A stretch of DNA of 64,000 nt from Oscillospiraceae bacterium. Lineage in GTDB: Bacteria; Bacillota; Clostridia; Oscillospirales; Ruminococcaceae. The DNA lies in assembly GCA_017427265.1 (NCBI GenBank), contig JAFRTG010000027.1:1-64000 (forward strand). The letters run 5' to 3'. The notes below the pieces were generated by a model. It made no database searches, was not told the origin of the DNA, and saw only the letters and a list, made by a program, of their open reading frames with translations. The translations under genes were made by a program, and so were the position numbers. This document shows positions 43,397-62,099 of the stretch, piece after piece. Numbering within the stretch: position 1 is the first letter of the stretch; each line of letters starts with the position of its first letter.

Positions 43397-43966
43397 TCAA
43401 CGGGTGCGGGAACGGGGCTGCGGACGCTGCGGCATCGGATCGAACGAGGTGTTTGTCGCATACGGATTCGACGGGTCACGCGCATATTTTGCAAGCTGCT
43501 CCTGAATCAGACGCAGACCCTCGCCGAACCGCTGATAATGCACGATCTCGCGTTCACGCAGGAACCGGATGACGTCCCGGACGTCCGGATCGTCTGCAAG
43601 CCGCAGAATGTTATCATAGGTGGTACGCGCTTTTTGCTCTGCGGCAAGATCCTCGTTCAGATCGGTAATCGCATCGCCGGTAGACTGGAAGGTCGCCGCT
43701 GTGAACGGCACGCCCGAAGCCGATACCGGATAGATGCCTGCCGTGTGATCGACAAAATAATCCGCAAAGCCCTGTGCTTCCAGCTGTTCCGGCGTGAGCC
43801 CCTTCGTCAGCTGATAGATCACGGCGGAGACAATCTCCATGTGAGACATTTCTTCCGTACCGATATCCGTCAGCAGGCCCTGCAGCTCCCGCAGCGGCAT
43901 GGTATAGCGCTGATTCAGATAGCGCATGGACGCACCGAGTTCGCCGTTCGGTCCGCCGAATACCAA
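43397..43966 (-). pseudogene. cotJC: CotJC-type manganese catalase, 5' end removed by element insertion
   Basis: About 189 codons remain. From GGPNGELGASMRYLNQRYTMP onward it follows the manganese catalase/CotJC family closely (LLTDIGTEEMSHMEIV, YFVDHTAGIYPVSASGVPF, EDLAAEQKARTTYDNILRL, FLREREIVHYQRFGE), with the later Glu/His metal ligands in place. The family has about 30 more residues before this point; here the frame runs instead into the end of the serine recombinase gene 16 bp away. A TTG at 43966 could start translation but has no ribosome site. The missing 5' part should lie at the far end of the element, beyond 64000. If the element excises, a whole gene would be rebuilt. Confidence 0.85.
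43941..43966. other. Candidate left attachment site in cotJC
   Basis: The family resemblance of cotJC stops here. TTCGG-TCCG-CCGAA (43947-43960) is a small dyad whose centre, between 43953 and 43954, has the non-palindromic dinucleotide CC, as serine recombinase sites need. The exact core cannot be set without the right end. Confidence 0.45.
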
Positions 43967-43982
43967 ATAGATATAATCAGCG

Positions 43983-45404
43983 TCACAAATGATAAACGAT
44001 CTCGATGCGACCGCTTGGCTTCATGAATATGATCTGTTCGACGAAGGTGCGCAGCACTTGGTTCTTGATGATTTCGCTTGCGCATGTGTCTGTGAGCGTC
44101 GTCAGGCTCGTTTCTACGCGCCCAATGAATGCAGTGGTATCTGGTGCCGGTGCGACCTCTGCAAGCTCTGTGCGAAGCGCAGAGAGCCGCTCTGTGATGC
44201 GCTGCTTGTTCTGCCTGTATTCGTCCAGCGTGTCGATACCGGCCTCAAATGCTTCTCTGACGCGCTCCAGTTTGCGCTCTTCCTTTTCGATAAGTGCCGG
44301 GATCGGTGATTCAGCCGATTTCGGCACATTTTGTTTTATCACGCGGGATTCAAAATCAGGGTCGGACATATCCTCGCGGATCTTTTCGAGCACTGCTGCA
44401 TTGATCTTGGCGATTGAGATCGAGTGCGAGATTTTGCACTTGCCTCTGCCGTAATTGTGGCATTGCAGGCCGTTGCCGGTCGAGGACATGACCAGCGTGC
44501 CGCCGCAGTTGTCGCAGCGGACCATGCCCTTGAGCATGAACTGCACCGGCTGATCGTGCCGGGCGTATTTCTTGTACATCTTCTTGGTATCGGCGCGCTT
44601 GGCCTGCGCAGCGTCAAAGACTTCCTGTGTGATGATCGGCTGATGCTGACCGTCAACGCACTGGTCCTGCTCATGGTAGCGGTCCGAGCGGTCACCGGTC
44701 ATACTGCGGCGCAGTTTGCCAAGATACACGGGGTTCGTCAGAATGTACTCTACCGTGCGATTCTCGAATGGGTTGCCGTGCCTGGACATGACACCCATCT
44801 CATTGAGCTTGCGCGCGATCTGACGCACAGGAACGCCGCTCAGATAGTCCTCAAAGATCATCTGCACGATCGGAGCAGCTGTCTCATCCGGGAAGAAGAT
44901 GCCGTCCTGCATCCGGTAGCCGAACGGCGGCTGTGAGACGACTCCGCCGCGTGAGAACTTCTCCGACATGCCGCGCCGGACTTCCTCGGCGAGGTTCAGG
45001 CTGTAGTATTCGTCCATAGCCTCAATCAGCGCCTCGATCAGGATAGAGGTCTTGTCTTCGGTGAGCTGCTCGGAGATGCTGATGACCTCGATGCCGCATT
45101 GCTTCCTGAGCATTGACTTATAAACGATGCTGTCCTCACGGTTCCGGGCAAACCGACTGAACTTCCACAGGAGGATGACGTCAAAGGGCTTCGGCTTCAG
45201 CTTGGCGGTGCCGATCATTCGCTGGAACTGCACGCGCTTGTCGGTTTTGCGCCCGCTGATGCCCTCGTCCGCGAAGACGAATTCTTCCGGGAGGATCAGG
45301 TCATGCTCCTTCGCATACTTCCGTATTGCCTTGAGCTGGCTGTCCGGCGAAAACTCGATCTGATCCTCTGTAGATACACGGATATATGCCGCAGCAGTTT
45401 TCAT
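43983..45404 (-). CDS. Large serine recombinase (integrase)
   Basis: 473 residues from ATG 45404 (AAAGGA at 9 bases; a GTG two codons upstream is too close). Resolvase domain with catalytic Ser in AAAYIRVSTEDQ (near 10) and LLWKFSRFARNRED, then the recombinase domain (FGYRMQDGIFFPDE...ILTNPVYLGKL), a zinc ribbon (CDNCGGTL...CHNYGRGKC) and a coiled coil (residues 370-440). This is the complete set for phage-type site-specific integration. Its stop lies 16 bp from the broken cotJC frame, as expected for an integrase beside its attachment site. Confidence 0.95.
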   Translation of the reverse strand: MKTAAAYIRVSTEDQIEFSPDSQLKAIRKYAKEHDLILPEEFVFADEGISGRKTDKRVQFQRMIGTAKLKPKPFDVILLWKFSRFARNREDSIVYKSMLRKQCGIEVISISEQLTEDKTSILIEALIEAMDEYYSLNLAEEVRRGMSEKFSRGGVVSQPPFGYRMQDGIFFPDETAAPIVQMIFEDYLSGVPVRQIARKLNEMGVMSRHGNPFENRTVEYILTNPVYLGKLRRSMTGDRSDRYHEQDQCVDGQHQPIITQEVFDAAQAKRADTKKMYKKYARHDQPVQFMLKGMVRCDNCGGTLVMSSTGNGLQCHNYGRGKCKISHSISIAKINAAVLEKIREDMSDPDFESRVIKQNVPKSAESPIPALIEKEERKLERVREAFEAGIDTLDEYRQNKQRITERLSALRTELAEVAPAPDTTAFIGRVETSLTTLTDTCASEIIKNQVLRTFVEQIIFMKPSGRIEIVYHL

Positions 45405-45420
45405 GCGCACTCATCCTTTC

Positions 45421-46176
45421 TTATGTGTTCAATTTTGCACGCAGTTCATCGGTATTTCTGCACTCATAATGCTGCATAAGGAACTGTACGAACATTAAGC
45501 CGCAGGCCAATGCATCGGATCCGGCTCTGTGTGCATTCCCGTTCACGATTCCATGTGCGTTGCAAAGTGTTGTCAGTTTATGATTAGGAAGTGACGGGCA
45601 CAGTTTTTTGCTCATTGCACAGGTATCATAAACTTTCTTTCCGCTCATAGCGTCATATCCGTTGACGTACATCATCTTTACATCGAACATTGCATTATGT
45701 GCGACAAGAGGATGATTTTGGAACACAAAATCAAACGATGGAATCAGTTCATGGAATAACGGAGCATTTGCTACCATATTATTGCTGATATGATTCACAG
45801 CGGTTACATCAGGTGGAATCAGTCTTCGCGGACGGATCAGCGTTGAGAACTGTAATTTCGGAACAAAATCTACAAAACGGATAGCGGCAACCTCGACCAC
45901 ATCATCACTTAACGTCAGTCCGGTTGTTTCCGTATCGAAGGCTACAAATGTTTGGAATGTACGCAGCGTCGTTCGAGCGGTGATGCTTTTGCATTTGAAG
46001 CTCGCAAGGTCTTTTCCGAAATTTCGTTTGTGCGGAGCCCCGCCGAGTTTAACAGCAAAGCATGGGAGTTCGCGAAGAATAAGTTCTGTGTTCAAAACAT
46101 TCGATTGTCTCACAGAAGAGACGGGCACGTTTTTGTACTGATCCAAAAACTTTTTTGCTTCATCGAAGAATCCCAT
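45421..46176 (-). CDS. DnaQ-like 3'-5' exonuclease domain protein
   Basis: 251 residues, AAAGGAGG before the ATG. The last 170 residues hold the DEDDh motifs FDTETTGL (residues 79-86), HNAMFD (about 160) and HRAGSDA (about 218), so a nuclease of the polymerase III epsilon type. The N-terminal 75 residues (DEAKKFLDQYKNVPVSSVRQSN) are of unknown function. Unusual between integrase and repressor genes; it might act on the host or on competing DNA, but that is speculation. Confidence 0.88.
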   Translation of the reverse strand: MGFFDEAKKFLDQYKNVPVSSVRQSNVLNTELILRELPCFAVKLGGAPHKRNFGKDLASFKCKSITARTTLRTFQTFVAFDTETTGLTLSDDVVEVAAIRFVDFVPKLQFSTLIRPRRLIPPDVTAVNHISNNMVANAPLFHELIPSFDFVFQNHPLVAHNAMFDVKMMYVNGYDAMSGKKVYDTCAMSKKLCPSLPNHKLTTLCNAHGIVNGNAHRAGSDALACGLMFVQFLMQHYECRNTDELRAKLNT

Positions 46177-46193
46177 TGGGGTACCTCCTTTAT

Positions 46194-46817
46194 CTATGAT
46201 GCAGGTGAACGCGAAGAGATGACATTTGCATAATGCGCTTTAATGAACGGTATGAATCTTTGCAGAAGTAGTTGATCTCTTTCGGACACATTCCAAAACC
46301 CTTTGTTATTGAATGTCTTAATTCTTTTTGATGCTGCTTCGTAAGAAACGCCAAATAAACCCATCAGATCAAATGAATCAATACCTTGTGAACAATAGTG
46401 TTGCAAAATATGATAGACCACAATTTCAGGCATCAGGACTTGTGCAGCAAAGAAATTCGCTTCAACTTCCTTAACACTATCTTCAATTCCGTCATCATCA
46501 CGATGTCCACAAAAAATATGCCCCAATTCATGCGTTAGTCCGAATACCGTATGCTCTGTATTATGGTCAAGTGATTCGTCATATAGAATTATATTGAAAC
46601 CATTATATTTTACAACATAGCATCCGTCTATATTCCTCCCTTGAAAGTCAGTTACATTTCCACGGACAATTTTAGCGTAATTTTGAATTGTATCAATGAT
46701 GATTCCGGATGATGAAAAATCATAATCACGAGGCTCAAAAACCAATGATTTAATTCGACATTGTAATAGGAAATCGGTAGCACAGTTTTGCGCTTTTTGA
46801 AAATCAGGTCTGCTCAT
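46194..46817 (-). CDS. ImmA/IrrE-type metallopeptidase
   Basis: 207 residues. Zinc motif HELGHIFCGH (residues about 99-108) and downstream EVEANFFAAQVLMP with the third ligand define the ImmA/IrrE family (PF06114). Such peptidases cleave the phage repressor to induce the element after DNA damage. The adjacent gene is the repressor, its likely substrate. Confidence 0.92.
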   Translation of the reverse strand: MSRPDFQKAQNCATDFLLQCRIKSLVFEPRDYDFSSSGIIIDTIQNYAKIVRGNVTDFQGRNIDGCYVVKYNGFNIILYDESLDHNTEHTVFGLTHELGHIFCGHRDDDGIEDSVKEVEANFFAAQVLMPEIVVYHILQHYCSQGIDSFDLMGLFGVSYEAASKRIKTFNNKGFWNVSERDQLLLQRFIPFIKAHYANVISSRSPAS

Positions 46818-46842
46818 TCTCTGTCCCCCTATTTTAAGTTCC

Positions 46843-47580
46843 CTATTTATTATTTCCAGTCAAACCTTTTGCGCGGAGATAGATATCTATGGTGCTTTCA
46901 AACGAACTAATTAACCGTTCACGGTCTTCTTCTGGTACATCTTCAAGATGCCGTGCGATTAGTTGGAGCCGCTTTTGTTCCGGTGATTGTTGCGATTGTC
47001 GGACATCCCATTCTCTATCTGCTTCTTCGGCTTCATGCTTTCTTTGCAAATATCCTTTTATATCGCCTTGCTCCTCATATGGGATGTCTTCATCTAAAAT
47101 ATATTGACCGTTTTCATAGAGTACTTGTTCGATATTTGTTTCAAGGAATTTGCACAGATCCTCAGCTTGTGCTTGCGTAATTGGCTCAAATCCATCTTCA
47201 CATAACTCGTATTGTTCTTTTGTCAAGCCAATCACATACCCCATTTCAACAGTTGAAACATTCAGTTCCTCACGCAATGGTTTTAACAGGCTACAAAAGT
47301 CGAACGGCGGATTGAAGTTGTCAATACCACTATACTCCCAGCTAGAAAAGCATTGACTCATTTCTTGAATAGTACGAAACTGTGATTTGCCAGTAAGCCA
47401 ATCAGTGGTAACATTGAAATAATCGGCGATTTTTTGAACAACTTCTCCATTAGGAATATTACCACGTTTAGCCCAATCCCCAATGGAATTGATATTCAAA
47501 TTCATTTGATTCAAAAAATCTTTCTGCAATATACCATTACGCTTAATCTCCGATTTCAATCTTTCGGTAAAAATAGACAT
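46843..47580 (-). CDS. Phage repressor, cI/ImmR type
   Basis: 245 residues from ATG 47580. N-terminal helix-turn-helix (LQKDFLNQMNLNINSIGDWAKRGNIPNGEVVQKIADYFNVTTDWLTG). A second helix-turn-helix-like region follows (MGYVIGLTKEQYELCEDG), and the C-terminus is a charged helix. The ribosome site is weak (AAGAG), as is common for self-limited repressors. It should bind the three sites at 47626-47701 and shut the rightward promoter. Confidence 0.9.
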   Translation of the reverse strand: MSIFTERLKSEIKRNGILQKDFLNQMNLNINSIGDWAKRGNIPNGEVVQKIADYFNVTTDWLTGKSQFRTIQEMSQCFSSWEYSGIDNFNPPFDFCSLLKPLREELNVSTVEMGYVIGLTKEQYELCEDGFEPITQAQAEDLCKFLETNIEQVLYENGQYILDEDIPYEEQGDIKGYLQRKHEAEEADREWDVRQSQQSPEQKRLQLIARHLEDVPEEDRERLISSFESTIDIYLRAKGLTGNNK

Positions 47581-47625
47581 AAAATCACTCTTTTCCAGTG
47601 CTGATATTATTAAAAGAACAGAAAT

Positions 47626-47639
47626 CACGAAAATTCTTG
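47626..47639. promoter_or_regulatory. Operator 1 of lysogeny switch
   Basis: CACGAAAATTCTTG, one base from the reverse complement of operator consensus CAAGAATNTTCATG. Centre 30 bp from operator 2, about three helix turns. Nearest to the repressor gene. Confidence 0.75.
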
Positions 47640-47647
47640 ATTTATTA

Positions 47648-47676
47648 TTGACAATCAAGAATATTCATGATAAAAT
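47648..47676 (+). promoter_or_regulatory. Rightward early promoter
   Basis: TTGACA (47648-47653), 17-bp spacer, TAAAAT (47671-47676). Operator 2 lies inside the spacer, so repressor binding would block polymerase. Confidence 0.8.
47656..47669. promoter_or_regulatory. Operator 2 of lysogeny switch
   Basis: CAAGAATATTCATG, a near-perfect dyad in the spacer of the early promoter. Confidence 0.8.
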
Positions 47677-47687
47677 GAAAACACAAA

Positions 47688-47701
47688 CATGAAAATTCTT
47701 G
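47688..47701. promoter_or_regulatory. Operator 3 of lysogeny switch
   Basis: CATGAAAATTCTTG, the reverse complement of the consensus; centre 32 bp from operator 2, just past the start of rightward transcription. Confidence 0.8.
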
Positions 47702-47757
47702 TTTGTATCTCTATTATATCATGCAAATGGAAAAATGTCAAGAGAGGAGGAAAGATT

Positions 47758-47973
47758 ATGCCTAATCAGTACAAAGCACGTCTTGCTATGTTGGGCATGA
47801 CGCAGACAGCCATTCTTCCGGGTGTTAGAGAACTGCTTCGGATGCCTGTCAATGTGACAGAGTTGTCCGCTGCTCTTAATGGCGTCGGTGCGCAGCGCAA
47901 ACACGATCGTATTCGTGAAGCAGTTGAAACACTGCTGACCGAACTTGAAGCAAAACAGAAGGAGGAAACCTAA
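47758..47973 (+). CDS. Small Cro-like regulator
   Basis: 71 residues from ATG 47758 with GAGAGGAGG upstream. Begins MPNQYKARLAMLGMTQTAIL and ends in a charged helix (REAVETLLTELEAKQKEE). First gene on the rightward early transcript, opposite the repressor, the usual place of Cro or Cro-like proteins; the helix-turn-helix is not certain by eye. Confidence 0.65.
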   Translation: MPNQYKARLAMLGMTQTAILPGVRELLRMPVNVTELSAALNGVGAQRKHDRIREAVETLLTELEAKQKEET

Positions 47974-47974
47974 A

Positions 47975-48724
47975 ATGCAAGAACCCGCAATTTTCACAAA
48001 TCCGGAATTCGGAAATATCCGGACACTCGAAACCGAGGACGGCAAGGTGCTGTTCTGCGGTGCTGACATTGCAAATGCGCTCGGATACAGCAATCCGAGA
48101 AAGGCACTTGCAGATCATTGCCGGTGCGTAACGAAACGTGACGCACCTCACCCGCAGTCTTCGGACAAGACCATTGAGATGTCCTTTATCCCCGAAGGCG
48201 ATGTCTACCGCCTGATCGCAAACAGCAAGCTGCCAGATGCAGTTAAATTTGAGGCGTGGGTGTTCGACGAGGTGCTGCCCACTATCCGCAAGACCGGCAG
48301 CTATTCTGTCCGCGACAGCTACCAGATCGAGGACCCGATCGAGCGCGCAAAGCGTTGGATCGAGGAGGAAAGCGAGCGCCGCCAGCTTACCGTACAAGTT
48401 TCGGCTTTGACTGTGGACAAGGCGATTATGCAGCCAAAAGCTGACTACTTCGATCAGCTTGTTGACCGGAATCTGCTGACAAATCTGCGGGATACCGCAA
48501 AGGAGCTGCATATCAAGCAGAATGCTTTTGTCCAGTTTCTGCTTGAAAAGAAGTATATGTTCCGCAATCAGAAAGGCAAGCTCATGCCCTATGCAAAACA
48601 TATTGATACCGGATTGTTTGAGATCAAGGAGTTCACGAATGAAAAGACTGGATTCAGCAGTAATCAGGCTTTGATTACACCGAAGGGGCGCGAAACATTC
48701 CGACTTCTTCTTCTTGGTTCATAA
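47975..48724 (+). CDS. Phage antirepressor, BRO-N and KilAC-like domains
   Basis: 249 residues from ATG 47975, GGAGG upstream. The BRO N-terminal domain (GNIRTLETEDGKVLFCGADIANALGYSNPRKALADHC...FEAWVFDEVLPTIRKTGSY) is clear, followed by a KilAC-type C-terminus (DYFDQLVDRNLLTNLRDTAKELHIKQNAFVQFLLEKKYMFR...KGRETF). Such proteins counter the repressor or regulate early genes. One base after the preceding gene. Confidence 0.92.
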   Translation: MQEPAIFTNPEFGNIRTLETEDGKVLFCGADIANALGYSNPRKALADHCRCVTKRDAPHPQSSDKTIEMSFIPEGDVYRLIANSKLPDAVKFEAWVFDEVLPTIRKTGSYSVRDSYQIEDPIERAKRWIEEESERRQLTVQVSALTVDKAIMQPKADYFDQLVDRNLLTNLRDTAKELHIKQNAFVQFLLEKKYMFRNQKGKLMPYAKHIDTGLFEIKEFTNEKTGFSSNQALITPKGRETFRLLLLGS

Positions 48725-48781
48725 TAACGCGCACCGTCCAAGCCGTTGCCCGCATAGACTACAAGGAAAGGGGCTGATCTT

Positions 48782-49024
48782 ATGAAAAATGGCAAGAAAC
48801 TGGAAGTTGTGAGCTACATCAGAGGAGCGGACGGCAACCTGATAGAGTTTTCGGCGCTCACGCAGGAAGAAAAGCGGCATGTCCGTGAGAAGATCGCGGA
48901 GAATGTCGGCAAGACGATCGGGCGTTACCTCTCGGAGCATCCGGAGGAAATCGAGCCGCTGAGCCGCTGCCAGAGTGTCCGCCTGATCCCGGATCCGCCG
49001 GAGAAAGGAGCAGCAGTATGCTGA
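48782..49024 (+). CDS. Phage hypothetical protein, 80 residues
   Basis: ATG 48782 behind AAAGGGG. Charged, mostly helical (TQEEKRHVREKIAENVGKTIGRYLSEH). Overlaps the next gene by 7 bp. No family recognised; retained for its ribosome site and the overlap chain it starts. Confidence 0.7.
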   Translation: MKNGKKLEVVSYIRGADGNLIEFSALTQEEKRHVREKIAENVGKTIGRYLSEHPEEIEPLSRCQSVRLIPDPPEKGAAVC

Positions 49025-49236
49025 AAATTGAAGCAACGTCCGGGCAGACCGCACTGTCCTGCCTTGGCACACCGAACGAGCTGGCAGAAGAACTCGCGCA
49101 TGTCGTGCAGCATGTTTGCAAGAAGATCATTTCCGCAGCAGCTCCGGAGGACCAGCAGGAAGTTTCGGCCGTGCTCGCAACGGGAATGACGCTTGCTGTC
49201 CGGAACGCTTTTCGGGAGGTGCAGGGCAATGACTGA
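49018..49236 (+). CDS. Phage hypothetical protein, 72 residues
   Basis: Starts inside the previous stop region (ATGCTGA). Predicted helical, with ELAEELAHVVQHVCKKII in the centre. Overlaps the next gene by 8 bp. Function unknown. Confidence 0.68.
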   Translation: MLKIEATSGQTALSCLGTPNELAEELAHVVQHVCKKIISAAAPEDQQEVSAVLATGMTLAVRNAFREVQGND

Positions 49237-49528
49237 CGGCCAGATCATCGCCTGCCTGTTTATCGTCTGCGGCGGTGCGATCGGTGGAGCAGTTGCTTAC
49301 TGCCTGCACATGCGCTCGATCATGCGGGATATTCTGCGCGATGAGCGCTTACAGCTGCGGATCTGGGCGCGAAACCATGCCGAGATGATGGCACAGGAGC
49401 AGCTTGTGGATATGCTGCGGCACCTGCGCGTGACTGTGCCGGTGACGCTCGTAAACGAGAGCGACATCGACTGGGGCGACGGAAAGGAGAAAGCACATGA
49501 CGCCGAACATGAAACGCTGGCTGCATGA
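49229..49528 (+). CDS. Phage single-pass membrane protein, 99 residues
   Basis: Start ATG 49229 (GGGAGG at 11 bases). One membrane helix near the start (IIACLFIVCGGAIGGAVAYCL), then a charged helical cytoplasmic part (ILRDERLQLRIWARNHAEMMAQEQ). Might be a superinfection or membrane-signalling protein, but this is open. Confidence 0.7.
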   Translation: MTDGQIIACLFIVCGGAIGGAVAYCLHMRSIMRDILRDERLQLRIWARNHAEMMAQEQLVDMLRHLRVTVPVTLVNESDIDWGDGKEKAHDAEHETLAA

Positions 49529-49691
49529 GCACGGTTTGACGGCTGTACAGGTCGCTCAGAAGGCCGGGCTGCTGATCCCGGACATGTACCGGCAGCTCAG
49601 CGGTGGTATGGCACCGGATCCGTCACTGCGGGACACGCTTTGCGGGGTGTACGGTATGACGGCGGACGAGTACAGGGAGGCGATGCCGTGA
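49497..49691 (+). CDS. Small helix-turn-helix protein
   Basis: 64 residues. MKRWLHEHGLTAVQVAQKAGLLIPDMYRQLSGGMAPDPSLRDTLCGVYGM reads as a Cro/C1-type DNA-binding domain and little else. Overlaps its neighbours by 32 and 4 bp. May fine-tune early genes. Confidence 0.75.
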   Translation: MTPNMKRWLHEHGLTAVQVAQKAGLLIPDMYRQLSGGMAPDPSLRDTLCGVYGMTADEYREAMP

Positions 49692-49870
49692 AAACTCTGT
49701 CGAATTTCCGCACTGTGACGCTGAAACTAACGCGGCATGAGGTTTGCAGATTACTTGTGCTGCTTGACGCGCTTCCGCCGGATGTGTCTAAAGAATACCC
49801 TGCTATCCGGCTGAAAATGCGAGCTCAGCTCGATGCACACGATGAGAAATGGAAGGAGGTTGACACATGA
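49688..49870 (+). CDS. Phage hypothetical protein with GTG start
   Basis: 60 residues from GTG 49688, which overlaps the previous stop as GTGA. Helical (LTRHEVCRLLVLLDALP). Overlaps the next gene by 4 bp (ATGA). Unknown. Confidence 0.65.
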   Translation: MKTLSNFRTVTLKLTRHEVCRLLVLLDALPPDVSKEYPAIRLKMRAQLDAHDEKWKEVDT

Positions 49871-50148
49871 AAGCACTGAGAATTGACGATGTACCGAAGC
49901 TGATTGAAATGCGCCATAATGAATTTTCTGTTATGTTTGAGCTCGGTTGTGCTTCCGGCAAGGATATTGACATCATCATGCTTGATGACGGCGTGCTGTA
50001 CCACAATCTCAAAGCTCAAGCAGCGGGCATGATGCGCAACGAGCTTGCGTCCCTGATCGCCAGGACGGACGTCTATGGCCCGGCGATTATCGCAGGCCGC
50101 GGCGGGGACGATGTTGCGCAGCAGTATGTCGATGCCTACCTTACATAA
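49867..50148 (+). CDS. Phage hypothetical protein, 93 residues
   Basis: ATG 49867 with GGAGGTTGAC upstream. No motif recognised; alternating strands and helices (MFELGCASGKDIDIIMLDDGVLYHNLKA). Part of the early overlap chain. Confidence 0.68.
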   Translation: MKALRIDDVPKLIEMRHNEFSVMFELGCASGKDIDIIMLDDGVLYHNLKAQAAGMMRNELASLIARTDVYGPAIIAGRGGDDVAQQYVDAYLT

Positions 50149-50167
50149 GAAAAAAAGGAGACAAAGT

Positions 50168-50407
50168 ATGCTCGAAATGAAAGCCGACGGGACAGTTGTC
50201 GAAATTGAGGCAAAAGGCACGATGTCTGATCTTCTCAGCGAGTATGCCTATATGACTGCTTCATTGATGCACAGCTTTCTGAAACCGTGCAACACAGACA
50301 GCGAATACAAGCGCATCGCTGAAATGATGACCGGCGCGTTTTGCGCAGGTATGAAGCAGGCAATGGACAGGCGCAGAAAAGAGGTCTTGCATGAAAGCAC
50401 CGAGTAA
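50168..50407 (+). CDS. Phage hypothetical protein, 79 residues
   Basis: ATG 50168 behind AAAAAGGAG. Mixed strand then helix (GTVVEIEAKGTMSDLLSEYAYMTASLMHSFL). Last gene of the first accessory group. Unknown. Confidence 0.68.
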   Translation: MLEMKADGTVVEIEAKGTMSDLLSEYAYMTASLMHSFLKPCNTDSEYKRIAEMMTGAFCAGMKQAMDRRRKEVLHESTE

Positions 50408-50415
50408 AAGGAAAA

Positions 50416-50482
50416 GCCGCATCCGATCTGGCACATCGGACACGGCCACAAACAAAAATGTCTGTATGCTCATTGTAGCATA
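50416..50482 (+). other. Two hairpins between early gene groups
   Basis: GCCG-N3-CCGAT...ATCGG-N3-CGGC (50416-50446) and TATGCT-CATTGT-AGCATA (50465-50482) lie in the only wider gap of this part, just before the PcfK-like gene. Could be a terminator-like RNA end, a processing site or regulator sites. No T-run. Confidence 0.4.
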
Positions 50483-50499
50483 GAAAGTGAGTTTTGTCA

Positions 50500-50865
50500 A
50501 TGGATAAGAGTTATTTTGATGTGAAGCCGAAAGGCAGGCACGCGCAGGTGATCGCCAAGCCGACGGCGGACGCGCTCATGGAGTTCTGCCGGCAGGAGCC
50601 GGAGTTCGAGCAGGCAATCATGCAGAGCGGCAAGAGTTTTGACCACTGCCTGACTGCGATCACAAAGGGCATCGGTCAGGCAATCAGCGATCTGGAGATC
50701 TACACCCGCGCAGTCAAGTTTTACTTTCCTGTGGCGGCGGTGCGGTTCCACATGACGATCGACCTTTGCGGCGATAACGGTGCGGTCGATCCGCCGATCA
50801 CGATGACGAAGCAGGACAAGCCGGAGCCGATGCAGCTCTCGCTTGATTCTCTGCTGGACTTCTGA
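50500..50865 (+). CDS. PcfK-like protein
   Basis: 121 residues from ATG 50500 (GTGAG upstream). The sequence KSYFDVKPKGRHAQVIAKPTADALMEFCRQEPEFEQAIMQ and FDHCLTAITKGIGQAISDLEIYTRAVKFYFP fits the PcfK family, which is usually followed by PcfJ on conjugative plasmids and phages, as here. Biochemical role is unknown; in plasmid pCF10 the pair is part of the transfer/processing region. Confidence 0.75.
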   Translation: MDKSYFDVKPKGRHAQVIAKPTADALMEFCRQEPEFEQAIMQSGKSFDHCLTAITKGIGQAISDLEIYTRAVKFYFPVAAVRFHMTIDLCGDNGAVDPPITMTKQDKPEPMQLSLDSLLDF

Positions 50866-50874
50866 GGTGAGACC

Positions 50875-52158
50875 ATGAAACAGGCGAGAAAAGATGCACT
50901 GCTGCACAGCTTCCCTGTCATCCCGTCAGACCTCATGGACAAGATGAAGGGCAAGTACGCAGGGAATTATGTTGTGCTCCTGACGAACGGCAACGAGCTG
51001 TTTGCTCGATGTTTTCACAGGTACTTCGGCGGACAGCTGGTAGAGCGTCAGCGGTATGTGTTCGCAAAGGACGGCTCTGTCCGGTACGGCAGGGATGACG
51101 GTCAGCCGTGGACAGTCCGCAAGGAGTTCCGGGAGCCGGTGTTCTGTCAGGCTTGTTACGGGTACAGCTTCGACAACAGCTACACGCTGCTGAACCGCGA
51201 AGCGATTGAGAAATCCTGCCTGAAATATTGCCGATATGATCTCTATACCGGTGATCTGCTGATGGAATACCTGCATTTATATTGCAAGCATCCGAATGTG
51301 GAATACATTATGAAATCCGGATACAGCAATCTGCTCATTGAACGCTGCACCGGCTACTGGGGCGGCAGATATGTCCTTGACACAAACCGGCATATCAACT
51401 GGAAATCGAACAATCTCCTGCAAATGCTCGGCTTGAACCGCGATGAATTCAAGCTGTTCACCGGGCATGAGGATTTGTATGATGAATATGTCATGTGGCG
51501 GGAGCATTATCCGAAGTGCAAGCCGAAAGACTTGCTGCTGATCGGCGGCGTGTTCGGATATGAATACGGCACAATGGAAAGGTTCGTCCAAGCAACCGGC
51601 TTGAAGCCGCAGCGGATCGCACGGTATCTCCTGGAACACGAGGTAGAAAAGCACGACTATGATGATTATCTCCGGCAGTGCATGCAGCTCAAATATAACC
51701 TGCACGATACTGCAATCTCAATGCCGCGTGACTTCATGGCAATGCATGCCCGGCTTTCAGAGATGATCCATTACAACGAAACGCAGGCAGCTCGGCAGCA
51801 GTTCAAGGAGAACATGGAATACCGCAATCAGCTTGAATTCGCATTCGGAGGTCTGTTTATCCGACAGCCGAAGAATATGACCGAGATCATCAACGAGGGG
51901 AAGCGCCTGAATCACTGCGTAGGCGGCTATGCCAAGCGGCACGCAAACGGCAAGCTGCATATCATGTTTATCCGCACAGTGGAAAAGCCCGATGTGCCGT
52001 TCTACACGGTCGAGGTTGACCTGTTCGGGAAGATCGTGCAGGTTCGCGGCCTGCGAAACTGTAAGACAACGCCGGAGGTTGATGCATTCATGGAAGCATA
52101 CAAGGATTATCTTGCCGAGGTATTCGGCAAAAAACAGAAAGTGAGGATTACGGCATGA
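50875..52158 (+). CDS. PcfJ-like protein
   Basis: 427 residues. The C-terminal part with LNHCVGGYAKRHANGK, FYTVEVDLFGKIVQVRG and NCKTTPEVDAFM is the PcfJ family hallmark; the N-terminus has CQACYGYSFDNSYTLL, a possible metal site. It starts 9 bp after pcfK and overlaps the next gene by 4 bp. PcfJ-like proteins are common in mobile elements of gut Clostridia; activity is not established. Confidence 0.82.
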   Translation: MKQARKDALLHSFPVIPSDLMDKMKGKYAGNYVVLLTNGNELFARCFHRYFGGQLVERQRYVFAKDGSVRYGRDDGQPWTVRKEFREPVFCQACYGYSFDNSYTLLNREAIEKSCLKYCRYDLYTGDLLMEYLHLYCKHPNVEYIMKSGYSNLLIERCTGYWGGRYVLDTNRHINWKSNNLLQMLGLNRDEFKLFTGHEDLYDEYVMWREHYPKCKPKDLLLIGGVFGYEYGTMERFVQATGLKPQRIARYLLEHEVEKHDYDDYLRQCMQLKYNLHDTAISMPRDFMAMHARLSEMIHYNETQAARQQFKENMEYRNQLEFAFGGLFIRQPKNMTEIINEGKRLNHCVGGYAKRHANGKLHIMFIRTVEKPDVPFYTVEVDLFGKIVQVRGLRNCKTTPEVDAFMEAYKDYLAEVFGKKQKVRITA

Positions 52159-53105
52159 GCGAGGAAATCATGTTGACCGAAAAGCAGCAGGCAGAAGCCC
52201 TGCACAAGCAGATCACCGGCTACGGTGAAGTGATCTATCAGTCGCTGTACGGGATGTGTACCGCGATCAAGCAGATGCGCGATTCAAAGCTCTATCGTGC
52301 GCTTGGCTTCGATACCTTTGAGGCGTACACCGAGGAAAAGCTCGGTATGAATCGAAATCAGGCTTATAAGTACATTGCTATTGCAGATAAACTTTCGGAA
52401 GAATTTGTATCCTCAAGGATACAAATTGGAATGACAAAGCTGACACTTCTCACCGCCCTGACCGACGACCAGCGTGAGGAGATTACTCAGACGGTTGACC
52501 TTGAAAGCACGACGGTGCGGGAGCTGAAGGCTCAGGTTGAAGCGATGAAGGCCGATGCGGCGAACAAGGACAAGCTGCTGACGCAGGCAAGAGAGGACTC
52601 CCAGAAAAGCTATGAGGAGGTGCAGGAGCGTCAAGAAGAGATCGACGATCTGAAAGCCCGGCTGAAAGAACGGACAAATCAGATGAATGATATGCAGGCT
52701 CAGATTAACGAGCTGGAAAGCCGCCCGGTCGAGGTCGCTGTTCCTGAGCCTTCCCACGAATTGCAGAATATGCAGGACGCGATGCGACGGATCAATCTGG
52801 AGCATGAGCAATGGTCAGCGAAGATTCAGGATGACCACATCAAGCAGGTTCAGGAGATCAACCGAAAGCACCGCGCCGAGACGGATGCCCTGCGTGCGGA
52901 ATACGAGGAGAAACTTGCGGCAGCGCAAGCCGCACCCGCCGAAGCGCCGGAGCCGGACAGCAAGGAGGTTTTCAAAGCCTACCTTGCAAATGCGATTGAC
53001 GCTACAAAACGCATGATGGCATTTCTTGCAGCGCATCCGAACGACGCTTGCAGAGCACAGGCGGAGCGGTTCTTTAGCACGGCCATGAAGGAGGTACAAG
53101 CATGA
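52155..53105 (+). CDS. Phage DNA-binding coiled-coil protein
   Basis: 316 residues. The first 110 hold a helix-turn-helix region of the DUF3102/ParB-like kind (GFDTFEAYTEEKLGMNRNQAYKYIAIADKLS...IGMTKLTLLTAL). Residues 115-260 are a long coiled coil (TVRELKAQVEAMKAD...), and the end is a helical domain. Likely binds element DNA and oligomerises, for partition, replication or regulation. The gene itself contains a perfect 26-bp palindrome (52402-52427). Confidence 0.72.
   Translation: MSEEIMLTEKQQAEALHKQITGYGEVIYQSLYGMCTAIKQMRDSKLYRALGFDTFEAYTEEKLGMNRNQAYKYIAIADKLSEEFVSSRIQIGMTKLTLLTALTDDQREEITQTVDLESTTVRELKAQVEAMKADAANKDKLLTQAREDSQKSYEEVQERQEEIDDLKARLKERTNQMNDMQAQINELESRPVEVAVPEPSHELQNMQDAMRRINLEHEQWSAKIQDDHIKQVQEINRKHRAETDALRAEYEEKLAAAQAAPAEAPEPDSKEVFKAYLANAIDATKRMMAFLAAHPNDACRAQAERFFSTAMKEVQA
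52402..52427. repeat. Perfect palindrome inside the coiled-coil protein gene
   Basis: AATTTGTATCC (52402-52412), loop TCAA, GGATACAAATT (52417-52427). It codes for part of the HTH region. A possible binding site for the protein itself, or an RNA hairpin. Confidence 0.85.
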
Positions 53106-53389
53106 GTGCAAGAAAGAAGCGCAAGCAGCGTCTCGGCCACACCTGCGCGAGCTGCCGTTTTTTCAACACTTATAATGGCAGAGGTATGTGCTATTATGAC
53201 TTTCAGGATGAGTGCCCGACGGATGAAGGCAGTTGGTGCATCAATTATCTGCCAAAGGAATACAGCCCCATTTCACGCCTGATACCCGGCACAAAAGGAA
53301 TGTGCTGTGAAGCGTGCGGGTACACGCCGAAAGAACCGAATGCGACTTGCCCGCTGTGTGGGAGAATTTGGAAGGAGGTGCGAAAATGA
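53102..53389 (+). CDS. Cys-rich zinc-binding protein
   Basis: 95 residues. CASCRFFNTYNGRGMCYYDFQDECPTDEGSWC near the start and a C-terminal zinc ribbon (CCEACGYTPKEPNATCPLCG). GGAGG lies 9 bases upstream; overlaps both neighbours by 4 bp. Role unknown, probably nucleic acid binding. Confidence 0.75.
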   Translation: MSARKKRKQRLGHTCASCRFFNTYNGRGMCYYDFQDECPTDEGSWCINYLPKEYSPISRLIPGTKGMCCEACGYTPKEPNATCPLCGRIWKEVRK

Positions 53390-53925
53390 GCAGACTGTTT
53401 GAGATTGCAAACGACTTCGCGCTGCTGTTCGATCAGCTTGAATCGTTTGACGAGATCGAGGAAGCCGATATGCGTGAGATCGCGCAGCAGGCGTGGTTCG
53501 ATACGCTGGAAGGCGTCGAGGGCGAATTCGAGCTGAAAGCGGAGAATGTCGCGCAGTACATCAAGGCGCTGAAGGCTGAAGCAGAGGACATCAAAGCGGA
53601 GGAACAGGCGTTATCTGCCCGCCGGAAGGCAAAGGAAAAGCGCGTCAAGAGCCTGACCGACTATCTCATGATGTGCATGAAGCGCATTCACCGGGAGAAG
53701 ATCGAGACGGCAAAGTGCAAGCTGTCAATCCGCAGGAACGCTGAGAGCGTGCAGGTTGCGGATGAGAGCAAGCTCATCGGTCAGCTTGTTCTGAATGGCC
53801 GTTCTGATCTGCTCCGCATCAAGACGCCGGAGCTGGACAAGACAGCGCTGAAAAAGTGCTTGCAGGATGGCGCGGAGATTGAAGGAGCATCGCTCGTCAG
53901 AACGGAATCACTGATTATTAAGTGA
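53386..53925 (+). CDS. Siphovirus Gp157-like protein
   Basis: 179 residues from ATG 53386 (GGAGG upstream). Pattern of N-terminal helix, long coiled coil (EDIKAEEQALSARRKAKEKRVKSLTDYLMMCMK) and C-terminal strands (KCKLSIRRNAESVQV) matches the Gp157 family, linked in streptococcal phages to resistance against superinfecting phage. Placed just before the recombination/replication genes, as in relatives. Confidence 0.85.
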   Translation: MSRLFEIANDFALLFDQLESFDEIEEADMREIAQQAWFDTLEGVEGEFELKAENVAQYIKALKAEAEDIKAEEQALSARRKAKEKRVKSLTDYLMMCMKRIHREKIETAKCKLSIRRNAESVQVADESKLIGQLVLNGRSDLLRIKTPELDKTALKKCLQDGAEIEGASLVRTESLIIK

Positions 53926-53933
53926 GGTGCGAT

Positions 53934-54767
53934 ATGGGATTACCGATTCTGATTCTCGGATATTCCGGCAGCGGGAAGTCCGCATCCATGCGAAATTTCG
54001 GCGAGGATGAAATCACGCTGATCAATGTCAACGGCAAGCAGTTACCGTTCCGGACACAGTTCCGGACGGTACTCTGCTCCGACCAGTATCCTGAGATTGA
54101 CCGCTGCATGAAGCAGCAGACACACAAAGTCATTGTTATCGACGACACGCAGTACCTTATGGCAAACGAGTTCATGCGCCGCGCCAAAGAGACCGGCTTT
54201 CAGAAGTTCACCGATATCGGAAAAAACTTCTGGGAACTGGTCAGATCGGTGCAGGATCTTCCGCCGGATGTAATTGTATACTTCCTGAACCACATTGACA
54301 CGGATGAGGACGGGCGGCAGAAGATCAAGACGATCGGCAAGCTGCTCGACGAAAAGATCACTGTCGAGGGTATGTTCACAACAGTCCTGAAAACGGTTGT
54401 CGTTGACGGTCGGTATCTGTTTGCAACGCAGACAGACGGCCGCGACAGCTGCAAGTCCCCGATCGGGCTGTTCCAGTCTATGTATATCGACAACGACCTA
54501 AAAGCAGTTGACGGTGCGCTACGCGTTTACTACGGCATGGAACCGGAGATCCTCTGTGGAGATTGTGGGAGACCGGTACAGGCATTCAGCGGAAAGACCG
54601 CCGGCCAGATTGCCGAAGGTACTGCACGGACCTACGGAAGGCCGTTGTGCTGGGGTTGTGCCTGTAAGCGCATGAAGCAGAGAAAGGAGGGTGCAAATGC
54701 CGGAGCTCAGGCCGTATCAGACGGAGCTGGTACAGCGGGTCAGCAGGTCATGGCGCACAGGGCATAA
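53934..54767 (+). CDS. Phage AAA-type ATPase
   Basis: 277 residues from ATG 53934 (GAGGTG upstream). Walker A GYSGSGKS (residues 8-15), Walker B VIVIDDTQY. RecA-like core of the AAA_24/Sak4 sort, plus a C-terminal Cys cluster (CGDCGRPVQ...CWGCACK). Probably involved in recombination or loading of replication proteins. Overlaps the helicase gene by 71 bp. Confidence 0.82.
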   Translation: MGLPILILGYSGSGKSASMRNFGEDEITLINVNGKQLPFRTQFRTVLCSDQYPEIDRCMKQQTHKVIVIDDTQYLMANEFMRRAKETGFQKFTDIGKNFWELVRSVQDLPPDVIVYFLNHIDTDEDGRQKIKTIGKLLDEKITVEGMFTTVLKTVVVDGRYLFATQTDGRDSCKSPIGLFQSMYIDNDLKAVDGALRVYYGMEPEILCGDCGRPVQAFSGKTAGQIAEGTARTYGRPLCWGCACKRMKQRKEGANAGAQAVSDGAGTAGQQVMAHRA

Positions 54768-56052
54768 AGCTCCGTGCATCGTCCTGCCGTGCGGCGGCGG
54801 CAAGTCTGTAATCGTTGCAGAAATGGCGAAGCGCACGGCATACGGCGGCAAGTACATCCTCTTTCTGGTGCATCGCAAGGAGCTGTGCGAGCAGATTCTC
54901 CGTACCTTCCTCTGGTGGGGCGTCGATATGCGCTTTGTCCGCATCATGATGGTGCAGACTGCCTGCCATAGATTGGGCAAGATTCCGCCTCCTGCGCTGA
55001 TCATCACGGACGAGAATCACCACAGCAAGGCGAGCAGCTACCAGAAGATCTATGACTATTACCATGATGCATACCGTGTCGGTGTGACGGCAACGCCGGT
55101 CAGACTGGACGGCAGCGGCCTCAGCGATGTCAATGATGATCTGGTGGTCGGCGTCAGCGCGAAATGGCTGATTGAAAATCATTGCCTTGCGCCGTATGAC
55201 TACTATGCGCCGGATGTTGCCGACCTCTCGACCGTCAAGGTGCGGCGCGGTGAATTCGATGCGAAATCCGCCGAGAAAATCATGCTGGAAAGCAAGGTCT
55301 ACGGCGATGTCATCAGCTACTACCGCAAATTTGCGAATGGGCAGCAGGCGGTCTGCTACTGCACAACGGTCAAGCACTCGCAGGCAATGGCAGCGCAGTT
55401 CCGCGAAGCGGGCATTGATGCTGCACACATTGACGGGCAGATGAAAAAGGCGGAGCGTGCGAAAATTGTTGAGGAATTCAGACAGGGCGCGATCGACATT
55501 CTCTGCAATGTTGACCTGATCTCCGAGGGCTTTGATGTCCCGGACTGCTCCTGCGTCATCATGCTCCGTCCGACGCAGAGCCTCACGCTGTTCATCCAGC
55601 AGGCAATGCGCTGTATGCGGTACCGCAAGGGCAAGCGTGCTGTGATTCTCGATCATGTGGGCAATTACGCACGGCACGGAATGCCGGACGATGACAGAGA
55701 GTGGACGCTTGCCGGAAAGCCGAAGCGAAAAGGCATGAAGCAGGAGCAGGTTGAGGACGAGGACAAGTTTTACACCTGCAAGGAATGCTTTGCGGTGTTC
55801 CCGCTGGTAAAGAACGGCGAGCCGGTTGAATGCTGTCCGCAGTGCGGCGCAGAGGTTGAACACAAGGCACGCAGGGAGATCGAGCAGGACATCAAGACAG
55901 AGCTGACAAAGATCACCGGCTTCACCGTCAACACCAAAACACCGGCGGAATGCCGCAGCTATCAGGAATTGCTTGAATACGCGAGAATGATGGGATACAA
56001 GCCCGGATGGGCGTATTATCAGGCAAAGCAAAGGGGGCTGCTAACAGGATGA
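54697..56052 (+). CDS. Phage superfamily 2 helicase
   Basis: 451 residues from ATG 54697 (AAAGGAGGG). Motif I LPCGGGKSV, motif II DENHH, motif III VTATP, and motif VI QAMRCMRYRKGK are in order; a C-terminal zinc finger (CKECF...CCPQCG) follows. Probably unwinds DNA during replication or recombination. It overlaps the nuclease gene by ATGA. Confidence 0.92.
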   Translation: MPELRPYQTELVQRVSRSWRTGHKAPCIVLPCGGGKSVIVAEMAKRTAYGGKYILFLVHRKELCEQILRTFLWWGVDMRFVRIMMVQTACHRLGKIPPPALIITDENHHSKASSYQKIYDYYHDAYRVGVTATPVRLDGSGLSDVNDDLVVGVSAKWLIENHCLAPYDYYAPDVADLSTVKVRRGEFDAKSAEKIMLESKVYGDVISYYRKFANGQQAVCYCTTVKHSQAMAAQFREAGIDAAHIDGQMKKAERAKIVEEFRQGAIDILCNVDLISEGFDVPDCSCVIMLRPTQSLTLFIQQAMRCMRYRKGKRAVILDHVGNYARHGMPDDDREWTLAGKPKRKGMKQEQVEDEDKFYTCKECFAVFPLVKNGEPVECCPQCGAEVEHKARREIEQDIKTELTKITGFTVNTKTPAECRSYQELLEYARMMGYKPGWAYYQAKQRGLLTG

Positions 56053-56402
56053 CCGAAGAACACGCAATACAGAACCGCATCCGCGCTGCTGTGTCTCCAC
56101 AATGTGCGATCTTCCGGACAAACAGCGGCGACTTCTGGCAGGGAGACAGAGTGTACTGCGCCGAATACGGGCAGTATGTTCTCATCAATCTGCGGAAGGT
56201 TGACGGTCTGCCGAAGGGCTTTGCCGATCTCAGCGGCGTGCGGAAGTCTGACGGACGGGCGGTCTACATTGAGGTGAAAACGGCATCCGGCAGGGTGTCG
56301 AAGGAGCAAAAGAAATTCCTCGCAAAGATGCGTGAGTACGGCGCAATCGCCGGTGTTGCGCGGTCTGAGGAGGAAGCAATCAAACTCATACAGGAGGGCT
56401 AA
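56049..56402 (+). CDS. VRR-NUC domain nuclease
   Basis: 117 residues from ATG 56049. Core GLPKGFADLSGVRKSDGRAVYIEVKTASGRVSKEQKKFLAKMREYGA has the D...ExK catalytic set of the VRR-NUC family of Holliday-junction or flap nucleases found in phages. Confidence 0.9.
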   Translation: MTEEHAIQNRIRAAVSPQCAIFRTNSGDFWQGDRVYCAEYGQYVLINLRKVDGLPKGFADLSGVRKSDGRAVYIEVKTASGRVSKEQKKFLAKMREYGAIAGVARSEEEAIKLIQEG

Positions 56403-56406
56403 AACA

Positions 56407-57069
56407 ATGGCATTTGGTACGAATTACGAAGACATCCCGCAGGGCGGCAGTCTGGTGCCGGAGGGCAACTATGAGTGCATCATCACGAACGCCGAAATCA
56501 GGCAGACGCAGAACGGCAAGTATAAGGTCAGCTTTATGCTGACGATCCGCAACGACATCCAGCAACAATGCGCGAACCGTGTGCTGTTCCTGGATATCTG
56601 GCGGAAGAAAGAACCGACACCGGCAGACGATCAGGTTGACGGCTTCAACTTCGCGCAGCTCATGGCAGTCAGCCGTGCTACACGGATCCCAAGCGGACAG
56701 AACTTTGAATCACTGGAACAGTTCCTGAAAGCATTGACCGGCAGGCTCCTGATAGCCGAAGTTAAGCACGAGGAATACAACGGCAAACCGGTTATCAGGG
56801 TGGATTCTCTCAATACTGCACCGACACAGTTCCCGGATTGCCGCCATGTACAGAAACAGCGTCCGCAGGCACAGACACCTGCATACGGTTCGTCTGCGCC
56901 TCGCCAGCAGCATGGCAATACGCAGAGGCCGCCGCAGCAGTCCTATCAGCAGCAGCCGATGCAGCAGGGTTATACGCAGCTCCAGCAGGCTGCTCCGTCT
57001 GCGCCGCCGATGAATCTGAATCCAGACGAGTTTGAAGCGATTCTTGCAGACGGAGAGGTTCCGTTTTGA
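56407..57069 (+). CDS. SSB-like protein (DUF669)
   Basis: 220 residues from ATG 56407. N-terminal 145 residues look like an OB-fold (GNYECIITNAEIRQTQNGKYKVSFMLTIRND), then a Gln/Pro-rich flexible linker and an acidic tip ending DGEVPF, which imitates the SSB tail that recruits partners. Located between nuclease and primase genes, consistent with single-strand DNA binding at the fork. Confidence 0.85.
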   Translation: MAFGTNYEDIPQGGSLVPEGNYECIITNAEIRQTQNGKYKVSFMLTIRNDIQQQCANRVLFLDIWRKKEPTPADDQVDGFNFAQLMAVSRATRIPSGQNFESLEQFLKALTGRLLIAEVKHEEYNGKPVIRVDSLNTAPTQFPDCRHVQKQRPQAQTPAYGSSAPRQQHGNTQRPPQQSYQQQPMQQGYTQLQQAAPSAPPMNLNPDEFEAILADGEVPF

Positions 57070-57129
57070 TCGGAATGATACGGGCGGGAGAAATCCCGCC
57101 TCCGTATCACAAAGACAGGAGGAATGCGA

Positions 57130-59436: not shown

Positions 59437-59439
59437 GAA

Positions 59440-59550
59440 TTGAGGGTAGTTGAGGGTTTGAGGGTTATTCCTATTCTATCATATGAAAAATTGAAGTGAA
59501 ATTATATATATACTCCTATAGAAACCCTCCAAACCCTCAATAACCCTCAA
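59440..59550. repeat. Inverted iteron-like array, candidate replication origin
   Basis: Left arm 59440-59466 carries three GAGGGT units in direct order (TTGAGGGT twice); right arm 59523-59550 carries the same in reverse orientation (ACCCTCAA). The arms are nearly perfect inverted repeats of each other and flank 56 bp of A+T-rich DNA with ATTATATATATA. This lies just after the primase-helicase gene, a usual place for phage and plasmid origins. It could instead be a strong RNA hairpin. Confidence 0.72.
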
Positions 59551-59568
59551 GTACAAAGGAGTGAGAAC

Positions 59569-60171
59569 ATGAAAATCGACCTGAGAGACCCTACGGTCTG
59601 GTCGGCACTCGAACGGCAGGCGTATGACGGGACTGTGAATCTGCTCCCTCTGCCGCCGCCCGCCTACAAGTATTTCTCCGAGCTGCAAGCCGTATATCGC
59701 GCATTCCGCTTTGAGGGGATGCCGAAGGAGGATGCGGAGAACCGCAAGCGGCTGCTCCGCAAGGCGTATGACGAGCAGGTCAAGGAGATTCACCGCGCGC
59801 GGGAGATCTACGCCGAGTATCAGACCGCTGTTCGCACTGCTGGCACGCTGACCAGTGAGATCGAGAAAACGAGTTCTGTATTCGAGCTTGCTGAAAAGGC
59901 TTGCAAGGCTGTCGGGCTGCTGATCGGCGACACCAGCTTCTACAGCAGGCAGATCCGCAAGATCACATGCGAGGGAACCGAAATTAAAAGCCAGACGGCT
60001 CACAACGAATATGATATGCTGCAAGGCTGCATGAACCGGATGTTTGTGACAGACGATCCGGAAGAGATCCCGCGGATGTATCAGTCGGCGATCCGGCTGA
60101 TTGATATCATTCGCAAATATAATACGGTACGGCTTGCAAGGAAGGAGGCCACCAATGAAAACAATACCTGA
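59569..60171 (+). CDS. Phage hypothetical protein, 200 residues
   Basis: ATG 59569 with AAAGGAGTGAG upstream. Charged, mostly helical; a Pro-rich start (NLLPLPPPAYKYFSELQ), then ENRKRLLRKAYDEQVKEIHRAREIYAEYQ. No family recognised. First gene after the candidate origin, so it might take part in replication control. Confidence 0.72.
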   Translation: MKIDLRDPTVWSALERQAYDGTVNLLPLPPPAYKYFSELQAVYRAFRFEGMPKEDAENRKRLLRKAYDEQVKEIHRAREIYAEYQTAVRTAGTLTSEIEKTSSVFELAEKACKAVGLLIGDTSFYSRQIRKITCEGTEIKSQTAHNEYDMLQGCMNRMFVTDDPEEIPRMYQSAIRLIDIIRKYNTVRLARKEATNENNT

Positions 60172-60271: not shown

Positions 60272-60273
60272 GA

Positions 60274-61185: not shown

Positions 61186-61192
61186 CGCGGAA

Positions 61193-61477: not shown

Positions 61478-61480
61478 AAA

Positions 61481-62073: not shown

Positions 62074-62099
62074 AAGCCACATAAAAAGTGTGCTATGAT
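62070..62099 (+). promoter_or_regulatory. Possible late promoter
   Basis: TTGAAA (62070-62075), 18-bp spacer, TATGAT (62094-62099) preceded by TGC (extended -10). It overlaps the end of the activator gene and faces the portal gene. Confidence 0.6.

Follow-up and report, generated by a model that had tools for sequence, protein, structure and literature searches.

The cotJC gene of the window (the whole 64,000-base stretch of DNA analysed here, which forms the initial part of a 342,075-base contig) is split by an integrated prophage of 35.4 kb that separates codons 1–28 from the remainder and interrupts the cotJABC gene run. The explanation we favour, at a probability of about 0.7, is that the large serine recombinase of a temperate phage integrated at a conserved site inside cotJC, the gene for a spore-coat manganese catalase, and that the same recombinase, together with a putative directionality factor, would excise the phage at a 7 bp core to give an uninterrupted gene. 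Such excision would most likely happen, or matter, in the sporulating mother cell, where cotJC would then work, and the prophage would stay in the forespore lineage, as it does with SP-beta and with skin, an element reportedly found in sigK of C. difficile also. The mother cell is suggested because sigma-E is given as the regulator of cotJC in B. subtilis (PMC3416734), which makes cotJC a mother-cell gene there, and because the mother cell dies. We infer the excision of the window's own phage, as well as its timing and cell type.

A prophage inside cotJC

The 3' part of cotJC occupies 43397..43959 on the minus strand (residues ~29 to the end of the composite protein). Its Mn-catalase ORF, 43397–43966 (-), is without an N-terminus, matching PF05067 over profile positions 28–198 (E 3.2e-43) and a CotJC profile over 23–204 (E 1.7e-98). 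The latter profile was built with the window protein included, so that neither this E-value nor the score of 379.5 given below is independent. A first-pass annotation, made from the letters alone, had described cotJC as lacking its first 30 or so codons and as split by a phage element beside its serine recombinase, and both statements were borne out: a whole-genome search found profile positions 1–31 in a 5' part on the same contig, at ~79397–79489 (-) and thus outside the window, with the prophage between the halves and the recombinase abutting the break. At an E-value of 0.001 these two pieces were the genome's two PF05067 matches and there was no third. The 5' piece reads MFQYEKALQYPVKIARPNARLAKMVMSQLGG, followed by LNSKKI and a stop as it runs into the element. 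Upstream of it lie cotJB (PF12652, E 8e-23) and cotJA (PF11007, E 1.7e-17). A CATACAAT box is located 5' of this cotJA; the same scan found no box of this type in L289–L291 or in the scanned part of L090.

Both break points carry the sequence TCGGCGG (minus-strand reading), at 43953–43959, the recombinase-end att site of the prophage, and at contig positions 79398–79404, outside the window. Joining the two parts at this core yields an uninterrupted, in-frame CotJC of 209 residues, with MSQ-LGGPNGELGASMRY spanning the junction and a score of 379.5; the 5' part on which the reading of an interrupted gene depended is present at the right end. From the symmetry of the two ends, the centre of the core would be its central GG. 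The joined flanks match the cotJC of two genomes of the same genus, G108 and G246, at 75 and 82 of 97 bases, and the gene is uninterrupted in both of these as well as in G374, the CotJC profile being continuous in all three. The recombinase stop had been placed 16 bp from the break, which holds when the distance is measured to the nominal TTG start of the catalase ORF (43966); the shared core is 23 bp away from the same stop.

The insert is a prophage. The part inside the window spans 43953..64000 and continues to contig position 79404, through terminase, tape measure and endolysin genes, before the 5' part of cotJC, cotJB and cotJA are reached. A PHROGs scan of 38 insert ORFs returned integrase, primase, helicase, portal, terminase large subunit, tape measure and anti-repressor among the 25 families listed of 133, and ten ORFs scanned singly gave exonuclease-like, metallo-protease, repressor-like, anti-repressor, primase, portal, minor head, terminase and endolysin matches and one of unknown function. 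Recombination directionality factors share little sequence. The recombinase itself (43983..45410, minus strand, 475 aa; phrog_95 integrase, E 3.2e-109) has the Resolvase, Recombinase and Zn_ribbon_recom domains of Pfam (PF00239, PF07508, PF13408), and S13 of its YIRVST motif, which we take to be the catalytic serine, is invariant in the eight-row recombinase alignment A1. It ends a run of minus-strand genes headed by a phage repressor-like regulator (46843..47658; phrog_8, E 2.1e-22), followed by a metallo-protease presumably of the ImmA/IrrE kind (46194..46817; phrog_87, E 4.4e-14, the best match being phrog_1914, which is without function) and, directly upstream of the recombinase, by a gene resembling a phage DNA polymerase exonuclease subunit (45421..46176; phrog_192, E 2.2e-42). 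On the plus strand are an anti-repressor (47945..48724; phrog_130, E 2.8e-70), a phage DNA primase (57124..59436; phrog_1829, E 2.5e-247) and a portal protein (62324..63550; phrog_104, E 4.5e-102). A scan of the element for mother-cell promoters gave six loose matches (in four places, as two pairs overlap) against 1.3–1.6 expected, and none was judged to stand before a likely gene.

Sporulation genes, which the first-pass annotation had proposed looking for in the host, are present, the programme being assessed from SigE-like, SigK-like and SpoIVA genes. SpoIVA scores 681.8 bits, above its cutoff; one sigma factor exceeds the SigE cutoff of PRK08301 (345.6 vs 339) and a second the SigK cutoff of PRK05803 (269.1 vs 252), and in the matched stretches scanned the two fall below the stricter TIGR02835 and TIGR02846 cutoffs. 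The SigK-like gene is in one piece, its frame without an internal stop. Beside cotJC, a gene at 41842–43218 (+) ends, as judged by eye, in a dockerin-like repeat, which would fit a Ruminococcus-type host.

Break sites and sequence joins of cotJC across Clostridia

Among 396 genomes of the host's family, PF05067 found matches in 277, and 80 of the 98 with weak best scores were searched again (18 were left out), breaks being called by a written rule on profile ends. In 72 of these 80 selected genomes cotJC is cut at one of three sites (74 by the rule, less G300 and G341, whose breaks are at contig ends): S1 in 28, S2 in 45 and S3 in 20 genomes, with two or more sites in 21. From other families of the class we took 46 genomes that had two or more matches and weak best scores (G726 was left out). 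Five of these proved contiguous (G461, G585, G640, G658, G708), leaving 41 with breaks, and removal of G545 (contig ends) leaves 40 of the 46, spread over 25 family groups; in 13 more than one site is seen, for which a single gene copy was not always demonstrated. These counts describe selected genomes rather than prevalence, and genomes rather than gene copies (G403 seems to hold two copies), and since contig-end exclusion was partial some of them may be contig-end breaks. A fourth site, S4, was confirmed once, in G190, where a piece ends ...VHFQRFGE and the C-terminal piece FGEGLRIVQDNLNSKNFYAFNPSFD follows ~5.9 kb on, on the same strand; profile ends suggest it in 12 of the 80 host-family genomes.

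The motifs at the four sites are, in composite numbering, GGPNGE (30–35), GTEEMSH (62–68), AAEQKA (134–139) and VHYQRFGE (168–175). When the window composite was aligned with the solved Mn catalase 1jku (E 4.4e-17), its residues E35, E65, H68, E136 and H169 fell on the ligand positions of that structure, presumably E35, E66, H69, E148 and H181. The break-site motifs are among the most conserved stretches of CotJC; TYDNILRL scores higher and no break was seen there.

Some genes hold more than one element. Two elements in a row, with three ordered pieces on one contig, occur in G338, G239 and G190, and coordinates indicate the same in G531 and G570. A third break is indicated in G239 by an S4 end next to which lies a third recombinase, and in G554 by four consecutive pieces on three contigs. 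As a control, spoIVA was found in 340 of the same 396 genomes and exceeded the full-length cutoff in 331, so that fragmented assembly does not in general account for the splitting. The one-contig genomes G338, G531 and G587 likewise have a split cotJC.

We examined 27 junctions in 22 genomes, the window included, and 25 rejoin in frame with the motif intact across shared cores of 3 to 14 bases; for 20 of these 25 the two pieces share a contig and stand in the expected order. The join script accepted in-frame joins sharing at least two bases and listed in-frame candidates only, so frame alone is weak evidence and the weight is carried by the restored motif and the core. The two junctions that do not rejoin are the S3 junction of G219, where both sides are contig ends, and one in G194, whose 3' piece fails to rejoin sensibly.

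Five genomes (G145, G100, G132, G131 at its S1 junction, and G368 at its S2 junction) have pieces that rejoin by sequence despite a reverse order, opposite strands, a distance of 675 kb or different contigs. The loci concerned include L076 on contig C83 of G100, L109 on C1 of G145, and L079 and L080 on C1 of G132; here the pieces are found on opposite strands or in reversed order or, in a one-contig genome, 675 kb from each other, and yet they rejoin in frame. That displaced pieces still rejoin suggests that larger rearrangements have used these sites.

Recombinases and insertion orientation

To the genome collection we put an alignment of eight recombinases, all first found beside cotJC, and took the best 80 of 496 relatives. 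A cotJC piece lies in the flanks of 75 of these best 80 loci, and as the loci were fetched by recombinase similarity, the association is more than chance. In 71 of the same best 80 (of 496) the 3' end of the recombinase abuts the piece: in 35 loci, which share the arrangement of the window, this is the cotJC 3' part on the recombinase's own strand, and in 36 it is the 5' part on the opposite strand. Among the 35 forward loci, 13 reach the gene end and 18 have a 3' part that ends again inside the locus (at S2 in 12, S3 in two and S4 in four); three more end at a contig edge and one, L164, appears frame-broken. L179, one of the nine loci outside the 71, appears frame-broken too. Short elements are seen, for example, in Faecalispora jeddahensis JCD (L176), whose two cotJC pieces flank a recombinase at a distance of ~4.6 kb, and in Ruminococcus flavefaciens SAb67 (L114). 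The closest recombinases listed come, according to their record titles, from Ruminococcus-like rumen and gut genomes. A cotJC piece is held by just 12 of 80 viral loci; the recombinases thus often occur without cotJC, as expected of free or trimmed phage contigs.

We built a FastTree phylogeny of 111 recombinases that lie beside breaks (S1 83, S2 22, S3 3, S4 3), in which long branches were flagged and support consists of local SH-like values alone. S1, S3 and S4 recombinases each fall on one side of a branch and those of S2 on two; the four site labels need three changes, the minimum possible, against a mean of 26.2 when shuffled. Several recombinase lineages thus appear, on this tree, to target cotJC independently.

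One and the same recombinase clade (L110–L189) inserts either way round in cotJC. Forward and reverse insertion at S1 require at least 24 changes on the recombinase tree, and the window's insertion is forward and that of its nearest relative, L110, reverse, with recombinases 96% identical. At the inferred centre, with the reading started at the recombinase end, forward insertions show the cotJC bases GG and reverse insertions CC, as cotJC itself dictates. Independent evidence comes from the viral loci: beyond the 12 with a cotJC piece, 15 of the 80 were too short and nine were without a clear inverted repeat, and the attP-like centres of the remaining 44 were CC in 17, GG in 16 and other in 11, some of these 11 probably being terminators. 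We had considered that the recombinase might flip the element in place, and set this aside, free attP sites occurring in both GG and CC types. In one pair, the window and viral contig L190, the inner core matches at 13 of 16 positions when flipped vs six of 16 the same way round, and the outer arms match at 17 of 17 and 12 of 17 the same way vs nine and ten when flipped. For Bxb1, orientation is set by the central dinucleotide alone, according to the title of reference 43 in PMC3783163. From these comparisons, insertion orientation appears to have switched often in nature.

L190 is also informative about the excised state. Its recombinase is 96% identical to the window's (93% in DNA), and the recombinase end runs straight into an 82.5% match to the far end of the window element. 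It is a free attP form of a close relative, with the appearance of a circularised or replicating phage, and it shows the excised form, not its timing.

Selection, competing explanations and known systems

The strongest evidence that a split cotJC stays useful is selection on the gene in G140 and G350, two species of one genus (not the window's) that carry colinear elements of ~9.2 kb in cotJC at S2 (L098, L108). The elements share 80.8% nucleotide identity over 7,558 bases, and the flank 83%. In the rejoined cotJC, compared over 205 codons, dN is 0.014 and dS 1.55 (dN/dS 0.009), which corresponds to ~6.5 replacement vs 93.5 silent differences. Composite codons 1–60 give dN 0.015 and dS 0.73, codons 61–205 dN 0.014 and a saturated dS of 3.0, and the raw ORFs of the pieces, with element-derived codons included, dN 0.051 and dS 1.98 (3') and dN 0.030 and dS 0.66 (5'). 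The recombinase has diverged more than the rest of the element (62% amino acid identity; dN 0.26, dS 2.2). A split cotJC that is still useful would be one that is reassembled. For the window's own gene, comparison with the cotJC of G337, split at another site, gives dN 0.094 and dS 1.18, values that do not date the insertion.

Eight cargo ORFs of the G140/G350 element were scanned: peptidase M20, CN hydrolase, a D-serine dehydratase-like enzyme, aspartate dehydrogenase, DUF3100, a YheO-like regulator, an L-PSP/RidA-like protein and one without a family. No phage family was found among these eight in the scan; what is conserved between the two species is a gene cluster for amino-acid catabolism.

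A recent, dead insertion, considered as a general explanation, is disfavoured by this colinear element and by the purifying selection. The first-pass annotation had left a choice between a new gene-interrupting case with regulated excision and simple disruption. The former is supported in part: the interruption stands, the regulated excision would fit it, and simple dead disruption fits the cross-species pattern poorly, given the mostly open frames, the purifying selection on a split gene common to two species and the repeated insertion into one gene; 'a new case' proved too modest, as the pattern recurs in many genera.

The most serious competitor is ordinary integration of a temperate phage into a gene dispensable for growth, with excision on induction only, cotJC off in lysogens, and open frames that reflect young insertions of fast turnover. 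The window element is indeed an ordinary prophage with lysis and packaging genes, its recombinase sits after repressor-type genes, and the site differs between the same-genus genomes G000 and G337, three other members of the genus being uninterrupted; for the window genome alone, with G108, G246 and G374 intact, a recent insertion without retained function is possible. As an account of the whole we nevertheless consider it unlikely: non-phage elements also occupy cotJC, one of them colinear in two species at a dN of 0.014 vs a dS of 1.55, and frames are kept open in genes with two elements in a row.

Purifying selection would also be expected if the pieces acted without excision, separately made fragments reassembling into an active catalase, and some 3' pieces do offer a possible start codon close to the break (the TTG at 43966 in the window). 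However, the 5' pieces at S1 and S2 comprise ~30 to 70 CotJC residues and run into element sequence, the breaks fall in or beside metal-ligand motifs, and the leader sequence of the 3' pieces varies widely, all of which makes such reassembly very improbable. Still harder to credit is an assembly or binning artefact that puts phage sequence inside cotJC. Many of the genomes are metagenome-assembled, apparent breaks at contig ends were seen in G300, G341, G545, one G219 junction and three of the 35 forward loci, and pieces are oddly ordered or distant in G100, G145 and G132; but both pieces lie within one long contig here and in the one-contig genomes G338, G531 and G587, the breaks cluster at the same few sites, and spoIVA exceeded its full-length cutoff in 331 of the same 396 genomes.

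Integration into cotJC followed by excision, most likely in the mother cell, is the reading we retain, and we think it fairly probable, with somewhat less assurance, that it extends beyond the window. The cotJC gene would then be the equivalent, in sporulation, of the nif genes that are interrupted in cyanobacteria, split into two to four pieces across many families of Clostridia by unrelated prophages and non-phage islands, at four Mn-ligand-motif sites with recombinase clades of their own; up to three independent excisions would be needed in a mother cell, some interruptions would be long inherited, and programmed excision would be normal in a considerable fraction of the spore formers of the gut. 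In spore formers, a handful of genes are known to carry elements that are excised during development, and here one gene is cut at conserved catalytic motifs in 25 family-level groups beyond the host's family, sometimes by two elements in a row. One can now test whether gut Clostridia routinely rely on programmed excision when they sporulate, why mother-cell genes act as safe harbours, and with what frequency an interruption turns permanent. These recombinases and the sites matched to them lend themselves to work on site choice, and the repeated switches of orientation to a test of the central-dinucleotide rule.

In the literature collection that we searched, no report of cotJC as a target of intervening elements was found, and in a survey of recombinases neither cotJ nor catalase appears in the main text, the supplements of which may list the gene (PMC10083194). 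In C. difficile R20291 a CotJC homologue is adjacent to the prophage phi027, deleted in the study concerned (PMC11222575).

Like the elements known to intervene in sporulation genes (skin, SP-beta, vfbin and gin), the window element lies inside a coding sequence, is flanked by a short direct core repeat at which joining restores the frame, carries its own recombinase and resides in a host with SigE-like, SigK-like and SpoIVA genes. A close parallel is SP-beta in spsM of Bacillus subtilis, where a prophage with a large serine recombinase likewise splits a spore-envelope gene and precise excision rebuilds it (PMC4191935); the window differs in its target, cotJC, and in its Ruminococcus-like host. 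There SprA is expressed whatever the state of the host, and SprB, made in the mother cell, sets the timing (PMC4191935), so that by analogy the timing of excision here would rest on a factor other than the recombinase. Skin in sigK of B. subtilis likewise interrupts a sporulation gene of the mother cell, with a serine recombinase to excise it (PMC3416734), but the gene it interrupts encodes a sigma factor and the one split here a coat enzyme, and the sigK-like gene of the window's host is in one piece. The G140/G350 element, with no phage genes among the ORFs scanned, resembles gin in gerE of Bacillus cereus, a non-phage element that carries serine recombinases and splits a sporulation gene; gin has three recombinase genes (PMC5595907), the G140/G350 elements have one by recombinase profile, and host gene and lineage differ. 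Finally, the heterocyst interruption elements of cyanobacteria, of which up to four occur in one nifD (PMC4874684), resemble those of cotJC in that several elements can occupy one gene that is needed only in a specialised cell, although the cell type and the host phylum differ.
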